This document shows positions 25,454 through 61,172 of a DNA stretch of 64,000 nucleotides, in pieces. The position numbers were made by a program, and so were the translations under genes. The notes under the pieces were generated by a model that worked only from the letters and a program-made list of their open reading frames with translations, was not told the DNA's origin and made no database searches. Source of the stretch: Impatiens glandulifera (taxonomy: Eukaryota; Streptophyta; Magnoliopsida; Ericales; Balsaminaceae); contig NC_061865.1 in the NCBI RefSeq assembly GCF_907164915.1, positions 57,184,587-57,248,586 on the forward strand. The letters are read 5' to 3'. Position 1 is the first letter of the stretch. Each line of letters starts with the position of its first letter.

Positions 25454-27081
25454 TTTGGGCTAGTTTGATTCAGCTTATTAACGCCAGCTTATCCAGTTTA
25501 TTCTTAGGTACATTTAATATGATCTCAACTTATTTAATGACTAAGCAGCTTATTCTTAGGTACGTTTGATATGATCTCAACTTATTTCATCATTAAGCTT
25601 GAATATGTTTGATAAAACTTATACGCCCAGCTTATTTATTTTTAATATTTACAATATATTATTTAATAATTAATATTATATATAGATATAATGTTATATA
25701 TATTTATTAATTTAATTTTAAATATTAATAAATGATTTAAATTAAAAAATTATATATATTTGAAAATAAATTATATTAATATATTATTGTTTATAAATTT
25801 TTATAAATATATAATTTAATTATTAATAAATGACTTAAATTAAAAAATAATATATTTTAAAATAAATGATATAAATATATTATTTCTATAAATATATAGT
25901 TTTAAATATATTTAATATAAATATGATATAAAAAATATATAGATATATATAAAAGTATTTAATAATATATCTTTTTTACATTTTCACACTTCCCTCTCTG
26001 ACCTAATTTTTCAATTGTCAATTTATTTTTCTGCACTCACACACTCTTAATATTATCATTCATTTTAGGATTCATCTAAATTGTAATCAGTATTTTAGAT
26101 AATTAATTAAGATTAGTTTAATTTTTAAAACTATAATTATGAATAAAAAAATATCAAAGTGTATTTATTTTTCATATTTTGCTTCATTATTTTATATATT
26201 AAGATATATATTATAAATAATAAATAAAAATATATTTAAATGTATCTTTTTTATTATAATAATTTTATATAAAAATATTATAAATATATAGAATAGATGA
26301 GAGAGAATGAATAAAATGATTAGAAATAAATGAAGATGAGTGATAGAGTGAGGGAATTTAATGAGGGAATTTGGTGAGGGAATGACGTGGCATCACCTTC
26401 ATTGGTTGGTTGGAAAATGTAAAAGTAGGAGGAAAGAGAGAAAAGAAATAAATTATTTGATTTTTTCAGCGAATAAAATTATGTCACGTCATTCCCTCAC
26501 CAAATTCCCCCACCTAATCATTTCTCATAAATGAAATAGATGAGAAAGAATGAATAAAAAAATATTTAAAAATGATGAGAGAGAGAAACGCTGAGATTAT
26601 AATCTTAAACGCTGAGGAGAGAGAAACGAGTAAGAGACCTTTCTCTTGTTTCTTGGCTTGATGCTCCCGAGAGCGATTCTTTGTTATTCTTCATTCGGAC
26701 AAGGGTGTTGGCAACGGTGAAGACATTGTACACTCAGTAGAGTTGATCGGCTCCGAATCCCCCATGGGGACCTCTAAATGTTTCAACATACGACTTAGTT
26801 GAGCAGCAAAACTCACACTTTCCTTGTTCTCTTGATTAATAGTTGAGCACAAGTTCAGGTACAAAGTTGAGGCCCAGTTGACCTGAATCCCTTTGAGATA
26901 GCCGACATATAGTCAAAACGGTCTTGACTATAAAGATGGAAAGAACCCGCCTTCCCTTGAAGCGCTTTAGAGAGAAAATTGAGTTCAAACGCAAAAATGT
27001 GTTTGGTTGTAATTTTTTGCGTAAACTTATTACGCAGACGCCCATATGCGGCTTATAAATGCTAAGTCAAACGAGCCCTTT
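25454..27081. mobile_element. Non-autonomous PIF/Harbinger-like transposon, 1,622 bp, TTT target duplication
   Basis: The element spans 25457-27078. The left end is GGGCTAGTTTGATTCAGC; the right end read inward is GGGCTCGTTTGACTTAGC. TTT flanks both sides. The uninterrupted target sequence (CATACTAAAACTTTAATAAT) is present about 100 bp to the right in a local duplication, which fixes the borders. No transposase frame was found. The interior has a 68-bp tandem repeat near 25,500-25,580 and a nested foldback MITE at 26,363-26,510. The superfamily is inferred from the 3-bp duplication and G-rich ends. Canonical Harbinger sites are TWA, so TTT is slightly atypical. Confidence 0.75.
26363..26510. 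mobile_element. Nested foldback MITE (GGAATGACGTGGCA family)
   Basis: AATTTGGTGAGGGAATGACG, part of a 30-31-bp arm at 26363-26393, is inverted almost perfectly at 26481-26510. The arms flank about 87 bp of A-rich sequence. Related copies lie at 11,551-11,687 and partly at 46,600-46,700. Confidence 0.7.
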
Positions 27082-27270
27082 AATAATCAACTTCAAATTT
27101 TAACCTAGAATTTGTACTTACCTTTATTAATGTAGCTCATAAATTAATTTAATCTTGTCTAAAATAGTACCATACTAAAACTTTAATAATCAACTTCAAA
27201 TTTTAACCTAGAATTTGTACTTACCTTTATTAATGTAATGTAGCTCATAAATTAATTTAGGTAGTGATCA
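27079..27270. repeat. Local tandem duplication, about 101 bp, holding the empty transposon site
   Basis: The block from TTTAATAATCAACTTCAAAT through TTTGTACTTACC and GTAGCTCATAAATTAATTTA recurs about 101 bp later. The right copy has CATACTAAAACTTTAATAAT uninterrupted. In the left copy the transposon at 25457-27078 splits this same sequence. Confidence 0.85.
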
Positions 27271-27289
27271 AATTTTTAGTTGGGTGGGG

Positions 27290-29640
27290 ACCATTATCAT
27301 TTAGGAACTGCACGAGTAAGATCAAATCAAATAAAGTATAATGTTAAAAACATGTTATAAATTGTTATTGTTTCTATCTATTATTTATATATTATTTTTT
27401 TATAATTCAAATAGACTTAATCACGTAGCCGGCCATAGGATAAGAGGTCTCATCGTACTAACAGGTTTAATCCTAAATCAATATATTAACATGTCGGTTA
27501 ACCAACTAAATTATGTTATTTTTGTTTAAATTTACTTATTATTAGGCATTTTTAGCCATTGAAATCTAATACCATACCTATTTTAACTAAAAAAAATCAA
27601 GAACAATTTTTTTGTTTGCTAAAAAATGTTATATATTGCCTAATCATAACGTCTTAAAATTCCGAATAAGCACAATATAGATAAAAAAATTCTAAATATG
27701 ACAAATAATATGTTTTTTAAATAAATAAACACATAATATATATATATATATATATAAAATTAGAAATCACAAATATAAATACAAAAAAATACAATTGTTT
27801 TGATCGAATATGCCTAAAGAACTTTGAGTGGAAATTGATTCCACTTCTTAATTATTATTATATATTAAGAGATCAAGCAAGATTTGAAAATGAGTCATGA
27901 AATCTCTCTCTCTCTCCATTCATTTATTAATAATAATTATTATTAGGAAAATTAAAATCATAATTAATTAATTAATGTGGCCAACCTGAATCCACGTCAA
28001 AACCATTAAATTATAATTTTTGAACATAATAAATATTAATAACATGGGGCAAGTTGCAATCTTCATCTCTTTATGCATGATTTTGATTTTTCCCAAGAAC
28101 ATATATTAAAAATAATAATTGAACATGATACTGTTTCATGGTCCATCTATCTGTACTCTTTCTCTCTTTCTCTCTCTTCAACTATATATATTTATATATT
28201 ATAAATTTAAAATATGCTAAGCATAGCATGCGAGAAAAGAAAGAATATTAAAACTAGGGTTAGCTACAAAAAACAATTAGAACCTTAAACTGCTGACATT
28301 TGAATATTTTAATGATTAATTTATTTATATAATTTTAAAGCTTGATTTGGGAATCCTTAGAATAAATGAAACTTACCCAATTTGTTCATTACTATAATTT
28401 AAATTTAATTTAATTGAATTAAAATTGAGAAATGTGATTGTGTGGATTCATGCATCTATCTTAATTAATTAAACACACTTATCAGTAGTAATAGACAAAA
28501 TATTGCTGTCAAACACACTTTTCTCTTACATGAATCAGACCTTAGGACTCAGATTGTCCATCCATATATATTATATTATATATGTAAATAATATGTAGGT
28601 TATGATTTATTAATTAAGATGTTAAATTAATCCTTAAAGTTCTATACTTCTATTCTTATTTAACAATGTTTTAGATTGAGAAGGGATGTCTTGCTATCTT
28701 CGTTCAATTTTTTTATAAATATATATTTTGTTTCATGTTAAAATTGTATGATTTTACGATTTGAAAGGAGACTAATGAGTAATTTTTTTTTATCCAAGAT
28801 CTCGTTATTTGGATGAAGTGTTATTAATGGTGAAATTCTAACCGAAGATATGTACATAAAAAATGTTGTATTATGGCTAGTCGTTGTCATATGTGTCACG
28901 AAAATGTTGAATTAATACTTTAATCACTTATTTTTGCATTATCGATTAGTGATTAGTATTTTAAGTCTTTTATGAAATATTACTTAAATTCATTGGGTGA
29001 TGCTCAAGTCTTTAAATAATTGTTGAGAAATTTGAATTGATTCAACTTATATATATGAGAAACTTACATATTTGAGTTAAAATCTCAATTATTTGTTGAT
29101 GGATTATCTAGTTGGAGAGAAATCGTCAAACTATCAACGATTATATGTAGTCGGCCGATACGTATCATTTATAATATACTATAATTATGACATTTTCTGA
29201 GATTCGTCCAGAAAAGCTAATAGAATCTATCCGTGAGTTAATCGTTTTCTCAAAAATTTACAAACTCGATAACTTATTTGGTACTGTTTTTTCTTTTCAT
29301 TAAATGTTTTTTTTTTGTGTTTAAATAATTTTTTTTCACTTTTAGTAAAATATATATTTAAAAAAAAACTAATTAGCCAGATTTAGGTCAACTCTTAATC
29401 TTGGGTTGAATAAAAACACAACATTTATTTATTACTTTTTTTAAAGACCATAATACCTTTTGATTGTACTATAACTAGCATAGATAGTTAAAATTTCAAA
29501 AAAAAAATGAAAATGAGATTATTCATAGAACACCTAGAATCTTATTATTGTATTTTTTCTTTTTTCACCAAAATAAAAAAAAAAAAATCATATTATATTT
29601 GAATTAATGATAGTAAGTTGCAGAGGAGCACTGATAACAA
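27290..29640. other. AT-rich spacer upstream of the SPL gene
   Basis: No gene was found. It contains a TA run near 27,740, CT-rich stretches near 27,905 and 28,160, and A/T tracts. Distal regulatory elements of the SPL gene may lie here, but none can be identified by eye. Confidence 0.5.
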
Positions 29641-29737
29641 AGGTGTGGATCTTCACATGTGATTACAAACTCCTCTGAGCTTTGGTGGCTCCCACTTCTG
29701 CTTCTCACTTTTACCATAATTTCCTCACCTCCTTCTT

Positions 29738-29888
29738 CCATCTCTCTCTCTCTCTCTCTTCTTCTTCTTCTCTCTCTATATTTGCAGTGCGTGCTGTCTG
29801 GAAAGTGGATTTGACAAGGCGACCAACCGTCCGATCTTCTCACATCTCTTCTTCATCATCTGAATGAACTCAGTCCTTGTTCAAATCG
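29738..29888 (+). promoter_or_regulatory. CT-rich 5' leader exon of the SPL gene
   Basis: A (CT)n/(CTT)n tract (29738-29778) is typical of plant promoters and leaders. It is followed by a likely non-coding exon ending in the good donor CAAATCG/GTAAGT at 29888/29889. The intron would run to one of the acceptors in the repeat array from 30,670. The transcription start is not defined. Confidence 0.5.
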
Positions 29889-30639
29889 GTAAGTTTATCA
29901 TGATTCCGATTATCCTACTATTAGTAATTTCCAAACTATCACTACAGTAGTACGTAGTATAGTATACTAGTTGTTGTTTTCCTTTTCATCAACAACTGTT
30001 CAACTGTTCATCGCACGAGATTCTCTCTTTTTCCTGAGATGTAGGAACAATTTAAAGCTAATAATAATAGTTAATGATCGATATGACTTCGTATTGATGA
30101 TAATTTCATGTTTGCTTTATTTTCATATGTTTTAACTTCTTACAGCTCATTATATGCCCTAGAAAGTGAAAGTTATTGCTTATTATCAATCATTTTAGTG
30201 CATTTAATGGAGGTGTCAGGTGTCTCTATAGATATTTCCGATTTGAGTGATACAACCAGATTAGCTGGACGGATTGATTGAATGAACTCATCAAATCTTT
30301 AATACTTCCAAAATAGTAATGAATTTCGTGTTTGAATAAAGTAGAAGATGCTTTTGCCGAGTTATTCATATCCTTGGTTCGGTTATTTTTTTAGTTTATT
30401 TCTCTGTTCTTGATGATTTGAGTGCGTTCTTTCGTTGTACGGACGATATCGGAATGCCTTGATTCAATTAATCAGGCATGTAGAACTTCTTCATCATCAT
30501 TATCATCATAGCCGTAGTGTGTTATTAGATTTGGATTTTTTCATTATATTGTTGTGCCTGTATGAGATCTAGTTAGGGAGTTCAGTCCATGGTTGATAAT
30601 TGGAGGAATTAAGGCAATTTATGTTAGTTATTTTGGTTT

Positions 30640-31130
30640 GATTTCCTTGTTAATGATCTTTTGCTTGCAGATTAAACTACATGAATCTGCATTCTATGGA
30701 AAAACAGCTTTTGTGCAATTTCCATTAATCATTTTGGTTTGATTTCCTTGTAAATGATCTCTTGCTTGAAGATTAAACTACAAGAATATGCCTTCTATGG
30801 AAAAACAGTTTTTGTGCAATTTCTATTAGTCATTTTGGTCCTGATTTTCTTTGTAAAATGATCTTTTGCTTGCAGATTAAACTACAAAGAATCTGCATTT
30901 TATTGAAAAAAAACAGCTTTTGTGCAATTTCCATTAGTCAATTTGGTCTTATTTTCTTTGTAAAATGATCTTTTGCTTGCAGATTAAACAACAAGAATCT
31001 GCATTCTATGGAAAAACAGCTTTTGTGCAATTTTCATTAGTCATTTTGGTCTGATTTTCTTGTAAATGATCTTTTGCTTTTCAGATTAAACTACGAGAAT
31101 CTCCATTCTATGGAAAAACAGCTTATGTGA
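30640..31130 (+). repeat. Five tandem 101-107-bp repeats, each with a 3' splice acceptor
   Basis: The unit contains TGATCTTTTGCTTGCAG/ATT, CTGCATTCTATGGAAAAACA and GCTTTTGTGCAATTTCC. Downstream edges of the five AG acceptors are at 30671, 30772, 30876, 30983 and 31085. In copy 2 the acceptor is AAG rather than CAG; in copy 5 it is TTTTCAG. Each unit also carries an upstream ATG. The last ATG (31110) gives a seven-codon frame, stop included, that ends 17 bp before the SPL start. The array lies at the intron/leader border of the SPL gene, so it offers several alternative leader lengths. Confidence 0.85.
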
Positions 31131-31147
31131 AAAGATCTGGCCTTAAT

Positions 31148-33247
31148 ATGGACTGGATTGGGAAGTGGGACTGGGAAAACCTGGTCATGTTTAATCCGAA
31201 TTCCATTGATTGTCCTAGAAAGAATCCGACAGACTGGGGAGTTGAAGAAGAGAATGCAACATCATTTCACATATCTGGTGGAGGGGTTTGTTCAGGCTCA
31301 GAATTGGGACATGGTTCTTCAGCAAGAAGTTCAATATCAGTTTCCACTGATTCATCATCAAAGAATGCAATCAACGTATCAAAGACAATAGTTCAGCCAC
31401 CTCGAAAGCATTTGGTACAAACTGAGCAATCTGGAAACCCTAGAATTGCTTATGGTAGTGAACCAGTGATTGGTTTGAAACTTGGGAAACGTACATATTT
31501 TGAAAATAGTTCAACATCTACTACTACTAATCCTGTTTCATCTGTGTTATCGACTAAGAAAATCAAATCATCTGGTCAAAGAATACCTTCTCCACGATGT
31601 CAAGTCGAAGGTTGCAATCTCGATCTCTCGTCAGCTAAAGAATATCACCGCAAGCATAGGGTTTGTGATGCCCATTCAAAGTGCCATAAGGTGGTTGTTG
31701 GTGGCCTAGATAGAAGATTTTGCCAACAATGCAGCAGGTTATAGCTTTTATGTTTCTATGTATTGAATTTTCAAGTTAAGCAAGAAAAACTTTAACATTT
31801 AACAATAGTTTCTTCTTTTTTTAACAATGTGTGTAGGTTCCATAGCTTGTCGGAATTTGATGAAAAGAAACGAAGCTGCCGTAGAAGGCTCTCTGATCAT
31901 AATGCGAGGCGACGCAAACCGCATCAAGAAGCTATCCAGTTCAGTTCAACTAGAGTATCTGCTCCATTCTTAGGTATTATTTACTACTCGAAAGAAGTTC
32001 TTAAGGCTGCATATTAGGTGATTCTAAATAAATTGAACATACTTATAGGATTCACCATATAAATGTTTTGAATTAAAAGACCAATGTCTCAATTTCAATT
32101 CCTATTTAACCTCCTACATAAATAAAACTTTGGTCTAAGAAAAATATCTTTATTTTCTTAAATTGTCAATGGATAGAATCTAAATGAGAGTGAAGTCAAT
32201 GAAAAAAATCATTCTAGCATGTCCCACTGTCTTACTCAAGTAATTACAATATTACCCTTGTACCATTTTTTATTTATTTTTCCTTTTCCAGAATGTTTGT
32301 TTTAAATTTAGGCATGGTTACTCAACTAATTACAATATGACCTTTATACTAACTTTTTTTTTTACTTTTCCAGAATGGTAGTTTTAAGTAGATTTAGGAA
32401 TGGTTACTCAATTAATTACAATATTGCACAATTTTTTTTTGATATTTTTTCTTTTCCAGAATGATAGTTTTAAGTAAATTTAGGCATTGTTTTGAGAAAT
32501 GTCATTTTGTCCAATCATTTGATCAAATCATCAACCAAAATAGTCTTATAAAGTTAATCAAGTTTTTCATGAAATTAGATTATTTCCAAATAACTTTATA
32601 ATAATTGTGGCTATGTTAATATGTAACAAATCTGGTGAAAAAATTGCAGATGGGGGACATCAAATAAGTTTTATATTGAACAGTGCTCCTGTTCTTGAAG
32701 GAAGATCATATGAAATTCCTTTATGGGAAAGCACATGTAGTAGCAGCTCCTCTAAGTTTATGTTAACCAAGGAATACCCATGGAAATCTGAAGGCTTTCA
32801 ACCCCCGCAGCCTCCAATTTGGCAAGGTTCCGATCACTTACAATCCAAGGGCACCGCCAGTTCAATTATGAGCCAAGGTTTGTCTTTTAATTTTCGATAA
32901 AATAAGGGTATTTTAGTATTTTAATTGATGATTTGAATTATTCAGGTTTGAAGAAATCGATAGCATCTTCTTGTGACTTGGTTCCGGATAATAATAATAA
33001 TCACTGTGCTCTCTCTCTTCTGTCAACTAATAATAACGGTTGTCAACCGTCTAAGCCAGCAAAGTTTCCATTGGACTGCCCTCTTCCATCGATGATGACG
33101 AGGGCAGCCCCGTCTTTTCCAATGGCTTCATCGGTTACTCAGTACTGGCAAACTGCCCCTGATTCTGCGGTTCTTGAAGAAATACAGCTCCTAAAGCAAC
33201 AACCATCTTACTACACTGACATCTATTCCAACATTTTGAACAAATGA
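31148..33247 (+). CDS. SQUAMOSA promoter-binding protein-like transcription factor, SPL2/10/11 type
   Basis: A plant-specific SBP-box transcription factor; this clade promotes the juvenile-to-adult phase change and shapes leaf and reproductive development. Exons: 31148-31737, 31837-31973, 32650-32877, 32946-33247. Phases agree and give 418 residues. The N-terminus ([17 protein letters not shown]) fits the SPL2/10/11 clade, as does the GLKLGKRTY motif before the DNA-binding domain. The SBP domain (about residues 151-226) has the zinc ligands of both fingers ([26 protein letters not shown]). It ends in the bipartite nuclear signal [12 protein letters not shown] and is split by the usual conserved intron. 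Exon 4 carries a miR156 target encoding ALSLLS. I prefer the ATG at 31148 over the upstream in-frame GTG at 31127. The exact paralogue (SPL2, 10 or 11) is not settled. Confidence 0.93.
32235..32495. repeat. Three tandem diverged repeats in SPL intron 2
   Basis: The unit TTTTCCAGAATG-(G)TAGTTTTAAGT-AATTTAGGCATGGTTACTCAA-TAATTACAATAT occurs three times with about 80-92-bp spacing. Each has TTTTCCAG, a fair splice acceptor, though none restores a useful reading frame that I can see. Confidence 0.7.
33006..33025 (+). promoter_or_regulatory. miR156 target site in SPL exon 4
   Basis: GTGCTCTCTCTCTTCTGTCA equals the canonical miR156/157 target of SPL genes and is in frame to encode ALSLLS. Established knowledge: miR156 cleaves or represses such transcripts in juvenile plants. 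The site shows no mismatch to the common SPL target sequence. Confidence 0.95.
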
Positions 33248-34384
33248 AAGTTATTTGTCGATTTGGCTTCTTCTTTAACTTTTGCTTAGGTTTTTGGAGA
33301 ATCATGAACCATCATCATGTCTGTTCTTCTGTCTTAGCTATTGTTATTTTTTATTTGTACTGGATTCGATTTTAGGTTTTTGTATCGATAAACATCAAAC
33401 TTGCAATTTTTAATGAGCAATCGGCATATTTTAGGAAATTTTTCAATATTGGGTATAGTCATGCATATCAAATTTGTCACATTTAAGGTTGGCTTGTCAA
33501 TTTTTTTGAAAATCCAAATCGAAAAATCAATGCCTTTCCTTTCCTATGACCGACACCGTATATAAAGAGAAGAGACGCAATAACTAGGTGAAATATTTGC
33601 AAAAACGCCAACTGAAACTATGAGGTTGGTTCAATTATATAGCTAAATCAACCTAATAGATCGGTTTACACTCTATCAAGAACCTATATAATCGGTTGTT
33701 TTCGGCTTGAACCCTATGAACATCAATGAGCTTCATAAGTGAGGCTTACGGAATGCCAAAAGTGTTCAAAACATAGAAGGGGAAGCAACATTACAATATT
33801 ATTCTACTTTTCGATAGGACTTTTTACTCTTTGTTCATAAATAAGAAAGCCAGCAAAATAACTATAAGGATATATCATGTTATAAGGATGCATATATAGA
33901 TAGACAAATTAAATATTTTTCCAACAGACAGACAGACCTAAAACCGAAAATAGTCATGTTTTCAAGCAACCAACATAGTAGTTCAATTCACGATAACAAT
34001 CTAAAAAACAAAAGTATGGAGACCTATTATTGGCCGACACAATGTATCAGAACAAGGATTCCATAAAGTAAACCGACTGACCGACCGCTGCAAGACGAGG
34101 ATGACTGACATGACTGACTGACGACAACCCTGAACCAACCTTCTCAACCCCACAAAAATACCTAGTACTCACTGGAACAGGTAGACAGACAGACAGACGA
34201 TGGAAAATCAATAACCAGAAAAATTGAAACATGAATGCATGATAATAAAACGATTGATTAATACCCGGAACAATTTGTTTGAACTTATCTTATTATGTAC
34301 TACAACAATGATCATTTGAAATCTTATAAATGAAAAATCCACTGAAACTAAACTTATCATGGAACAACAACAACAAAAACGGAC
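33248..34384. other. Spacer and 3' regions between SPL and the RanBP2-finger gene
   Basis: The 3' untranslated regions of the two convergent genes lie here. A short GACA-type repeat occurs near 34,190. No further gene was seen. The last codon or codons of the minus-strand gene may also lie here. Confidence 0.5.
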
Positions 34385-37188
34385 CTGATCATTTCCATTT
34401 GTTGTTTCTGAAGGGGACTTTATATCTTCCTCAGATGGTTTCTCGGCCCCACAATTCTGTCTGTTACATTTGTTCCTAAACGGAAAATTCACATTGTTGC
34501 AATTTTCACACTTCCAGCTTCCCTCAGGCAACCTTTGCTCTGTTGACAATTGTTACAAACTTTATTGTAAGTAAAATATATCAAATAAGTAAAATACCAA
34601 AGTAAAAGACTTACTTGGATTCTTATCAGATTTGGCAACCTGCATTTCATGAAACTAGTTCATCAGTCAAGAATCACAATGTAGACCAAGTCCTTGTTTG
34701 ATGTTGGGTATTGAAAATCATGTTATTTGTGTAAATGTCATTAGGGGTATAAATATATAATGAATGATATGATTGATGAGTAGATTGTTAATTGGATTAT
34801 TTGAAACTAATCTCATATAACCCACATCAAACAAGCTCTTGTTGTTAGAATATCCTAAGACATATATAAAATGGCAATTCAAACCTGAGGTCCAGGCTTT
34901 GGAGTGTTGCACTTTCTCATATTGCAAACAGTTCTAAAAGAGAAGTTAACATTCCGACAATTGGGACATTTCCAGTCGTTATCGCGTGTTGCATCTAAAA
35001 AGAAAATAGGACAATATAATTATGATAAAAAAATTGCAAATGTCTAGTCATTAGTTTGGAATAAAAGCAGCACCTTTCTTATGGGGTTTCTCTTCAGAAA
35101 AATATTCAATCCTTGGACCCTGATGAAAGACCATTCATTAACTTAGCAACAAAAAAAATCTTCAAAAGACAATGCAGGACTTCTTCAAACAAATTATCAA
35201 AAAAGATTTCATAGTTTCCTAATACATAATTTTCGACCCACAAACATATGGAAGTGTTGCCATGTGAATAAGGGAGCGTATGTAGAAATATTGCACAAGT
35301 GGCCCATTAAAAAGACAATGCAGGACTTCTCCAGACAAATTATCGAAAAAGATTTCATAGTTTCCTAATACATAATTTTCGACCCACAAACATATGGAAG
35401 TGTCGCCATGTGAATAAGAGAGCGTATGTAGAAATATTGCACAAGTGGCCCATTAAAAAGACAATGCAGGACTTCTCCAGACAAATTATCGAAAAAGATT
35501 TCATAGTTTCCTAATACATAATTTTCGACCCACAAACATATGGAAGTGTTGCCAAGTGAATAAGGGAGCGTAAGTAGAAATATTGTACAAGTGGCCCCAT
35601 TTGAAAACACTTTTGTTTCTGTTTCTATATCTGGAAGCATTTCCAAAAACAAAAGTTTTTCCAAATAGGGAAAACTATTGACATACCATGGCAGTATGGC
35701 CCATAGGCATAATCAGGCCATATCGATCTATCATGGGTGGTGGCATACCGTACATTCCACCTGAAAAAAGTTAAGAACATTGATGCATAATAACCATGAA
35801 AATACATTGAACATAAAGTACATAGAGCAGTATGAAATAAAATATCCTCTAATACCTAAACCTGCACTACAAATTATCCTGCACATGAACTTGAATATTA
35901 TTTCAAATTTAGTAGTTGAACTTATGAGCTAGAAAGATATATTTTCATGAAAAATTTGAAAAGGGCAGTTCATCACACTATGCATGCCTGTTTTATTTAC
36001 AGTAACACTTATTTTCATTCTAGTAGTTCAATGCTCATCTTATGATGATTAATCAAAATATAATTATAATCCATTCTCAGTAATCTATGTTATACTTAGA
36101 AGTAGCAAATACATCAGTTCTCTCTTTTAACATATAACATTATTGGGACACGTTTTAAACAAGAGATTTGTTTATTTATTGGGACGGGTAAAAACTAGAT
36201 GAGGGTAGTTTAGGTAATGTAATGTTAAAAAGTGATTGAATTGACCCTAGTGATCTTATAAATTGGGATAATGATAAATTTTAGAAAGTTAAAGAGGCAA
36301 GAAAAAGTAAATACAAGTCTTAATGGACCTACCAGAATATGGTGGTGGACTAGATAGAGGCAGAGACCTATATGGGCTGCCTCCTGAAATATGGCGTCCA
36401 TATTCGTAAGGAAGATGTGAACCCCGAGCAAGAGGTACGTCATAACGAGGCATAGACGAACCATTATAAACCGAAGACCCATAAGGTGGAAGACCCATAT
36501 ACATCGAAGATGGTCCACCCGATCCAACATAAGGAACTGGAGGCAAGAAACCATGGGAATGGGAATGGGAATGTTGCATAGGATTACCCACCAATTTCTG
36601 ACAATTAAGAAGAAATTTTGCTTAAAACCACCTGTGTTCCATGAGATTATAATTCAAAGGAAACTTACTAAATTGTGATCAACTGGTCTAGACTGATGAC
36701 AATTGCGCATATTGCATGTTGTCCTAAACGAGAAATTGACATTTCCACAGCTAGGACATGTCCAATCATCTTCTCTTCGACCACCTACAACCATCAAGAA
36801 AAGAGAAACAAGATATATCATCTGCTTTGATTTGGATCTAGAGATCAAACAAAAATCGATAATATCATCGATTATGACGAGAAGATGTAACATACCATCG
36901 GTACGAGCTCGTTTAGATGTAGAAGAATTCCTGTAATCGACCTGAAACAAATCAAAATTATTATCAATATACATTCTGAAAATGCAATCAGCTAGAGATC
37001 AATCTATCAATGAACAATATAACACTTCTATTATGATATCCATCAAGCTATATACAGTACGAAAAGGAAGACAAACATGAATTCACTATACATTACCAAA
37101 TACGCCATGAAAATTTGATCAGAAATGAACAGAAAGAAGGAATTTCAAAAGATTAAACCTAGAAGACGATCTATCTAACCTTCGACAT
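34385..37188 (-). CDS. RanBP2-type zinc-finger protein with three fingers
   Basis: Likely an RNA-binding protein, since this finger type binds single-stranded RNA or ubiquitin. Exons on the minus strand: 37180-37188, 36896-36941, 36669-36784, 36333-36597, 35687-35760, 35074-35119, 34885-34994, 34615-34639, 34385-34539. All phases agree over 282 codons. Fingers follow W-x-C-x2-C-x3-N-x6-C-x2-C: DDWTCPSCGNVNFSFRTTC (about 24-50), DNDWKCPNCRNVNFSFRTVC (about 190-215) and SWKCENCNNVNFPFRNKC (about 236-262). Between fingers 1 and 2 is a Gly/Pro/Ser/Tyr/His-rich low-complexity linker. The C-terminus is uncertain: after NDQ a GT donor follows, and reading on reaches a stop at 34208. The Arabidopsis counterpart I recall ends close to this point, so a tiny last exon is likely. 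It is transcribed divergently from the ALKBH1 gene. Confidence 0.88.
34690..34838. mobile_element. MITE in the RanBP2-finger gene
   Basis: CTTGTTTGATGTTGGGTA (34693-34710) and TAACCCACATCAAACAAG (34818-34835) form a near-perfect terminal inverted repeat around about 107 bp. It is related to the element at 1709-1907. It is intronic. Confidence 0.7.
35165..35605. repeat. Three tandem 146-147-bp repeats in an intron of the RanBP2-finger gene
   Basis: The unit starts AAAGACAATGCAGGACTTCT and contains TTTCATAGTTTCCTAATACA and CATATGGAAGTGT. Copies begin at 35165, 35311 and 35458. They are highly alike, so the triplication is recent. It is non-coding: frames crossing it are repeat products. Confidence 0.9.
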
Positions 37189-59502: not shown

Positions 59503-61172
59503 TCAAGCTTCAGTATTAGATCCAACAATCAGATGCCCAATTGTAGCAGTCAATATTCCCAGTAATGAACCAACAATAACCTGAAAAATAATCGCATAAT
59601 CTTACATACAATGAAATGTGAATTGGGTGTGAAATTGTGAATGAATTGGGATGTGTTCTTCGGTTCTAGTTGCAAGACTAACATTACAAATTGACGGTTC
59701 TTTTTGTAGTTTGATATGATAGAACATTTACATAAACTAGTTGAATCTAGATGTTGGGTAGAACAAACCTGAGATGGTGTGTGGCCTAGAAGCTCGCGTA
59801 ATGGTATACTCTCGGCCAGAGGATGTTCGGGTGGGAGTTCATACACAATTTGGTTCAGAACCTGATAAATTTCCAGTTCAGAGCTGTGTAAGATGATGCA
59901 TCAATGTCTTGGGGAGATAAGAAGTAAATTAAAGAGAACAAAGATATAGAACCTCAGCTTGACGTCCAGCATGTAATCTTACACCAAAAGCATCATGCAT
60001 GACCTGTTTTTTACAGGAATTGAAGAACATATCAATAAATCTGATGAGAAAAGGAAGTGGATACAAAACTGATTAGACCATAACAACAGTTTTGGTAATT
60101 TCAGCCTTTATATGGATTCAAATGCTGAAAATGATGCGAGTATTTCAAATTACCAAACAAAGAGTATCAGACTTAGAGATGATTCATTATCAAAGAGGCG
60201 AAATTAGGCGATAGCAAATTGTAAATGAAGAATTGAGGCAGGGAACATACGACACATGCGAAGACTGATGCAGTTGCAAATAATGATCCTCGAAAGCCAT
60301 CTTGAAAACCAACAGCCAAAGCTAGTGCAGAGACAGTTGAAGAATGCGAAGAAGGCATTCCTCCAGATCCAATAAGTTGTTTTAAATCCCAACGCTTCTC
60401 TCTGTATCTGCAAATCTAATCAAGCTTAAGAATCTTAGGATAAACTAGCAAGCTAACAGCCTAACAGAAAAGAAAATGACATTGAACAATCGCATCAGCT
60501 TGTTCTATATCTGCAAATATCATCTATCTATTATCTATATACACTCATGTGAGCTACATGCTTAGTTTCATCATGAATTAATCTCTGTATCTGCAAATCT
60601 AATCAAGCTTAAGAATCTTAGGATAAACTAACTAGCTAGCTAGCTAACAGGAAAGAAAATGACATTGAACAATCGCATCAGAACTTGTTCTATATCTGCA
60701 AATATCATCTATTATCTATTATCTATACACTCATGTGAGCTACATGCTTAGTTTCATCATGAATTAATCTCTGTATCTGCAAATCTAATCAAGCTTAAGA
60801 ATCTTAGGATAAACTAACTAACTAGCTAACTAACAGGAAAGAAAATGACATTGAACAATCGCATCAGAACTTTGTTTTCTATCTGCAAATATCATCTATC
60901 TATTATCTACTATCTATTATCTATATACACTCATGTGAACTACATGCTTAGTTTCATAATGAATTAATCATTCAATCTACAGATCAGTAATCAATAGAGT
61001 TTGAAGAAGAGTTTAATTAGTACCTGGATACGAAGAGCTTGATAAACTGAGCAATACAAAAGGCAACGAGAGCAGATATGAGAGGATAGTTCGCTACTAT
61101 TGAATTAGCCGATGATGCTTCTTTTGCGTTGTTTTTCGCCATCAACCTAACCGAGTCTACCAACTCATCCAT
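59503..61172 (-). CDS. DUF212 / acid phosphatase-vanadium haloperoxidase-related membrane protein
   Basis: A small membrane protein of the PAP2-related DUF212 family; the substrate is unknown. Exons on the minus strand: 61024-61172, 60251-60407, 59953-60003, 59769-59861, 59503-59580. Phases agree and give 175 residues. It starts MDELVDSVRLMAKNNAKEAS. A first membrane segment (about 25-45, YPLISALVAFCIAQFIKLF) leads to the family signature SGGMPSSHSSTVSALALAVG, a second segment (SLFATASVFACVVM) and HDAFGVRLHAGRQAEVLNQI. A third segment (VIVGSLLGILTATIGHLIVG) closes the protein. The conserved GMPSSHS and HDAxGVRxxAGRQA motifs are intact. Intron 1 contains three tandem repeats that duplicate the exon 2 acceptor. 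The likely Arabidopsis counterpart is At1g67600 (from memory). Confidence 0.92.
60401..60967. repeat. Three tandem 183-186-bp repeats duplicating the exon 2 acceptor of the DUF212 gene
   Basis: Units begin with TCTGTATCTGCAAATCTAAT at 60401, 60584 and 60770. Each continues with CAAGCTTAAGAATCTTAGGA and ATGACATTGAACAATCGCAT. On the minus strand each unit carries AGATTTGCAG/ATACAGAG, which is the real exon 2 acceptor and first exon bases (60407) plus two decoys at about 60590 and 60776. Confidence 0.9.

Follow-up and report, generated by a model that had tools for sequence, protein, structure and literature searches.

A five-unit tandem array of candidate 3′ splice acceptors in the leader of Impatiens glandulifera SPL12

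In the leader of the Impatiens glandulifera gene for squamosa promoter-binding-like protein 12 (SPL12), the end of the leader intron and the start of exon 2 are repeated head to tail in five units. We think it rather probable that one member of a duplicated pair of Impatiens SPL genes underwent tandem duplication of a segment across this border, which grew to five units, and that the spliceosome would now pair the 29888 donor with one of four acceptors that look workable (those of units 1, 3, 4 and 5), as tolerated splicing variation with little regulation. The likeliest to be chosen would be acceptor 1, the nearest and best-scoring, and acceptor 5, the original; the leader alone would then vary, with 2 to 11 exon-2 upstream ATGs, and the protein would stay constant. 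All positions refer to the window, the 64,000-nucleotide stretch of DNA that was analysed.

The SPL12 gene and its array

The SPL coding model (31148-33247) gives a protein identical to the annotated NCBI squamosa promoter-binding-like protein 12 of I. glandulifera (P0001). The product contains an SBP domain (PF03110, E 1.1e-30), and its 7 PDB matches are all SPL proteins; among viral contigs, no relative of the domain was confirmed. The last exon has a site that is one mismatch away from the complement of what we take to be the miR156 sequence, and with the SBP domain this bears out the earlier note, which had placed the array in the leader of a miR156-targeted SPL gene. Sites for miR156 in 3′ UTRs are the subject of PMC5343461. 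The features of the gene, which lies on the contig here called C4, where the genome search puts the window at 57184587-57248586, are as follows (a slash marks a splice boundary; uORF, upstream open reading frame).

29650-29888, + strand: leader exon 1, its start at 29650 being arbitrary; the 36-base block 29797-29832 and an upstream ATG at 29864 lie inside it
29889-31084, + strand: leader intron, as it would be with the last acceptor; donor CG/GTAAGT, common to the paralogue on contig C8
30624-31129, + strand: five-unit tandem array with a spacing of 101-107 bp, each unit being a leader intron end plus an exon 2 start
31110-31130, + strand: short uORF encoding MEKQLM and a stop; two synonymous codon changes and an L/M difference separate it from MEKQLL and a stop in the C8 paralogue
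31148-31737, 31837-31973, 32650-32877 and 32946-33247, + strand: SPL coding sequence in four coding exons, 418 aa, equal to P0001
33006-33025, + strand: last-exon sequence GTGCTCTCTCTCTTCTGTCA, a target site of the miR156 type

Tandem Repeats Finder reports the array with a period of 101, 4.9 copies and a score of 740, far beyond chance. The first exon bases after the acceptors are 30671, 30772, 30876, 30983 and 31085, exactly those that had been proposed, and their spacings of 101, 104, 107 and 102 agree with the fivefold array of 101-107-bp units described in the earlier note. The units are 82-93% identical in pairwise comparisons, and each is made up of a branch-point region, a T-rich intron end, the AG and about 55 exon bases starting with ATTAAAC. 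The proposal that every unit has its own upstream ATG holds in part: the segments of units 1-5 contain 3, 3, 1, 2 and 2 ATGs, so there is at least one in each, but the MEKQ start codon is no longer present in unit 3, whose sole ATG sits in the next pyrimidine tract.

Tandem arrays are common in this window, since there are six with a period of at least 80 bp, totalling 2,193 bp. One array of 146 bp x 3 (35164-35597, 96% matches) is inside an intron (35120-35686, minus strand) of the adjoining gene, which encodes a RanBP2-type zinc finger protein, and another of 186 bp x 3 is found at 60399-60969 (91% matches).

The proposed donor at 29888 also has support. Its U1 pairing of -9.3 is the best among the four donors tested in the SPL12 gene (-5.6 to -9.3), and because both this donor and the 36-base exon-1 block recur in the C8 paralogue, the block with one difference in an exon 1 much of whose surrounding sequence differs, the donor and the upstream first exon are likely real. 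The uORF that begins at 29864 has 9 codons, spans the splice junction and stops at the TAA of ATTAA whichever unit is joined. With the first acceptor, the leader intron would be 782 bases long.

Origin and age of the array

The array is found in one (C4) of the three SPL paralogues examined. The closest paralogue (P0002, on contig C8) is 63% identical and is probably the whole-genome-duplication partner of SPL12. It has one matching acceptor, TTGCTTGCAG/AT, 62 bases before the ATG and aligned with the last unit; its donor, CG/GTAAGTTT, and exon-1 block match those of SPL12, and the acceptor, uORF and start codon follow in the same order. This agreement of donor, exon-1 block and uORF around a single acceptor that aligns with the last unit indicates that unit 5 occupies the original site and that units 1-4 arose from it by tandem duplication. 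The array itself consists of head-to-tail copies that hold both the intron end and the exon start of the native gene, and an origin by tandem duplication of the native acceptor module is well supported by these comparisons. Tandem Repeats Finder found no array in the C8 paralogue region (L032:1000-6000). The leader intron of that paralogue (L032:4120-4653) does contain decayed direct repeats 400-427 bp apart, 83-84% identical over 36 and 32 nt. In the C1 paralogue (P0013), the leader intron was judged by eye to have one acceptor, and blastn gave no convincing similarity to the units (best E 0.29). Of the two paralogues compared for the MEKQL peptide, C8 has it and C1 lacks it. Since the C8 leader is partly conserved, uORF included, changes in the leader may not be neutral.

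A genome search with the array as query returned five matches: the array itself and four others, 81-88% identical over 165-176 bp, on contigs C5, C1063, C1 and C3 (L006, L007, L008 and L009). Within 9.5 kb around each, tblastn found no SPL12 match at E 1e-3. The four sit in kilobase-scale shared repeats; identity is 91.7-95.4% in the six pairwise comparisons of the block that surrounds the fragment, and 86-95% for other co-linear blocks longer than 250 bp. The C5 and C3 copies start with CACTACAAAA and have unrelated flanks; the C3 copy spans 6,700 bp, finishes with TTTTAGTA and is flanked by GTT on both sides, the right end of the C1063 copy is TTTTAGTG, and the remaining copies are without one or both ends. 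Reading frames were looked for in L009, which has no stop-to-stop frame of at least 100 aa, and in L006, whose element part has one frame of 146 aa without a Pfam match. A 401-base interior piece of the family gives 8 matches on six contigs. Overall, the dispersed copies have the shape of CACTA-type elements. The piece that they carry begins in the exon part of unit 2 and runs through unit 3 (TTTTATTG) into unit 4 (CAATTTGGTCT):

30775-30954, + strand (boundaries approximate): segment also present in four CACTA-type copies, from the exon part of unit 2 to the start of unit 4

The presence of a similar segment in four dispersed elements could suggest that the array entered the gene with a transposon and that its splice acceptor is foreign, but we consider this very improbable. 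The C8 paralogue has a single, native version of the module in the same setting, and in a tree rooted on that paralogue the transposon units fall inside the array, joining unit 3 (bootstrap 64) within a unit 3-4 group (86) on a short alignment; together these lead us to disfavour a transposon-derived array. Furthermore, when L006-L009 were compared by blastn with window positions 26001-36000 (E 1e-6), the array was the only match, and related copies on C7 (L018) and C8 (L019) have no array match. The most likely direction of transfer would be from gene to transposon, after the array had arisen.

Because the transposon copies nest inside the array tree, the array appears old, and the presence of part of this tandem 3′ splice module in a transposon sets a minimum age for it. 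We applied a simple clock calibrated with the Ks of 0.25 and the 26.16 My given for I. glandulifera and I. noli-tangere in PMC12598466. Divergence between array units then corresponds to 7.7-21.5 My, a figure that gene conversion between units would make too young; the transposon copies are dated to 4.9-9.2 My, and the split between the fragment and the SPL gene to 13.1-22.3 My. We estimate the array to be roughly 8-22 My old, an age that argues against its core being a hypervariable minisatellite.

With 0.37-1.03 neutral hits expected on the ten AG bases, the probability that all five AGs survive is 0.69-0.36, so their survival is expected even without selection. All four transposon copies likewise keep CAG with no SPL gene nearby, although, being of common ancestry, they do not count as four separate tests. 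A further explanation, selection on the core of the acceptor, was also tested, and extra constraint there was not significant (5 of 24 core columns variable versus 28 of 76 elsewhere, Fisher p 0.21). The least variable 24-column stretches of the unit do cover the acceptor (4 of 24 variable), a low variability that could reflect weak constraint.

Candidate acceptors and their possible use

To score the acceptors we used a matrix from 22 introns of the window, defined by exact spliced matching of three proteins: CAMTA4 (P0121), the RanBP2-type protein (P0241) and SPL12 (P0001). When each was left out in turn, the 22 annotated acceptors scored 1.7 to 11.9, with a median of 6.47. The five sites of the array compare with them as follows.

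30651-30671, + strand: acceptor 1, CAG, intron end 30670; score 7.99, with 15 of the 22 annotated acceptors lower
30752-30772, + strand: acceptor 2, AAG, intron end 30771; score 1.2, with 0 of 22 lower
30856-30876, + strand: acceptor 3, CAG, intron end 30875; score 7.59, with 12 of 22 lower
30963-30983, + strand: acceptor 4, CAG, intron end 30982; score 7.59, with 12 of 22 lower
31065-31085, + strand: acceptor 5, TTTTCAG, intron end 31084; score 6.47, with 11 of 22 lower; this is the position of the single C8 acceptor

There are thus four CAGs and one AAG, as had been noted, and by matrix score acceptors 1, 3, 4 and 5 look ordinary, whereas acceptor 2, the AAG, is probably dead. Matches to the branch-point motif YTRAY lie 21 to 47 bases upstream in units 1, 2, 3 and 5; no upstream match was found for unit 4. 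Among the 342 AGs within the 22 introns, those that score at least as high as units 1, 3, 4 and 5 number 7, 9, 9 and 15, respectively, and of the leader intron's 40 AGs ahead of the array, two (30212, scoring 7.22, and 30044, scoring 6.48) reach the score of unit 5. Such AGs are uncommon rather than rare, and score alone is consequently no proof that any unit is used.

SPL12 has a second array, in one of its coding introns, that provides a control of sorts:

32232-32491, + strand: the other tandem array (86 bp x 3), inside coding intron 31974-32649; it holds three acceptor-like sites TTTTCCAG/AATG

The three TTTTCCAG sites have scores of 4.5-6.3. The annotated acceptor, at 6.03, is exceeded by one of them, which combines CCAG with a preceding CTAAC branch-point match and T-run. 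Nevertheless, the annotated SPL12 protein bypasses all three and uses 32649; splicing to any of them would bring a stop at codon 244-247. That a tandem-array site looks like a good acceptor is thus no proof of use, although this control is suggestive only, as the annotation is itself a prediction and favours open frames. Apart from one match of 45 bp, this array has no other match in the genome.

The five-unit array has no comparable supply of donors. The 21 GTs listed in 30600-31150 have a U1 pairing of -3.4 or weaker, so no new exon or intron is expected and the array would multiply acceptors only. An AG/GT recursive splice site is likewise absent, as all five acceptors read AG/AT, and among those 21 GTs we found no donor that pairs with a duplicated acceptor, as intron gain by tandem duplication would have it. 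A potato gene did gain an intron by duplication over the same type of border (PMC4974935), and on that precedent the Impatiens units could be extra exons, new introns or recursive splice sites; given the absence of good donors and the AG/AT context, we disfavour cassette exons, intron gain and recursive splicing alike and regard this reading as having next to no likelihood.

The earlier note had proposed that copy number sets both the choice of acceptor and the number of uORFs. If used, acceptors 1 to 5 would indeed place 11, 8, 5, 4 and 2 exon-2 upstream ATGs before the coding sequence, so that the load would rise from 2 to 4, 5, 8 and 11 as sites further upstream were joined; however, the five are not equivalent, acceptor 2 scoring below all 22 annotated sites. 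All of the uORFs listed close before the main ATG, and the longest have 35 and 36 codons. In tobacco, a 153-nt uORF triggered nonsense-mediated decay (NMD) and those up to 108 nt had no such effect (PMC3284524). The longest added uORFs are about the latter size, so decay is not the obvious outcome; reduced reinitiation would be.

How much of this is put to use is where the remaining explanations differ. The array might be a working regulatory device, in which alternative acceptors set uORF number and leader length and so tune expression on top of miR156 control. Four acceptors that are workable by score, an exon-2 upstream ATG load that would range from 2 to 11 and a short uORF common to two paralogues are in its favor, but unit 2 is probably dead, the retention of the acceptors fits neutrality and is seen in the transposon copies too, and the longest added uORFs are about the size that escaped NMD in the tobacco work (PMC3284524). 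We judge this unlikely, and the tunable layer over miR156 that had been suggested gains nothing from AGs whose survival is expected neutrally, from transposon copies that keep CAG or from second-array sites that are skipped; tuning by the array is possible but unsupported, as the sequence offers no positive evidence for it. A more specific version is a graded uORF-load switch, with C8 keeping a plain leader and C4 split among leaders with 2-11 exon-2 upstream ATGs, which would lower or condition translation independently of miR156, and with CACTA-borne pieces that could also yield small RNAs against the leader; it is a shade more doubtful again.

Another alternative is that one acceptor alone is used, either the first, as the nearest, or the last, as the original, and that the rest are silent intron or leader. 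The annotated protein that passes over three second-array sites, one of them scoring above the acceptor it uses, speaks for this, but that annotation is a prediction favouring open frames, units 1, 3 and 4 outscore unit 5, and the units have a common sequence context, so that a strict choice would need another cause. Although this is a serious contender, we think it probably wrong, and we favor a duplicated native module whose four workable acceptors would share the donor with little regulatory consequence.

Relation to known systems and meaning

Alternative splicing in plant leaders can change upstream ATG content. What sets SPL12 apart from plant leader splicing in general is that its candidate acceptors recur about every 100 bp as copies of a single module. 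Judged by titles and the starts of abstracts, no publication was found that deals with an SPL leader's tandem acceptors or uORFs.

The nearest parallel is the potato gene mentioned above, in which, as described in PMC4974935, a tandem duplication spanning the junction between intron 1 and exon 2 copied the 3′ splice site together with its branch site and pyrimidine tract, and a cryptic GTAAG donor was activated to create a new intron. The SPL12 array also duplicates an intron/exon 2 border with its 3′ splice site, but in five copies, with no good donor and in an untranslated leader, where acceptors would multiply without intron gain. By its sequence, it is a five-fold counterpart of that duplication minus the new intron.

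The dispersed copies recall the Pack-CACTA elements of Arabidopsis, which have the ends CACTACAA and for which a 5 nt duplication is reported (PMC8903248): the Impatiens copies on C5 and C3 start with CACTACAAAA, and the copies have a host gene fragment inside and, where looked for (L009 and L006), no long frame. They differ in that the captured piece is non-coding intron and leader from units already in tandem, not coding DNA, and in that the C3 copy, the only one in which both ends can be seen, has a duplication of 3 bp rather than 5 nt.

Use of the upstream acceptors would leave the protein as it is and change the leader length by 0 to 414 bases. The array would then be a natural cis-competition, with near-identical acceptors in series behind one donor and a paralogue that represents the single-acceptor state, and counts of junction reads would directly rank similar tandem plant acceptors by distance.
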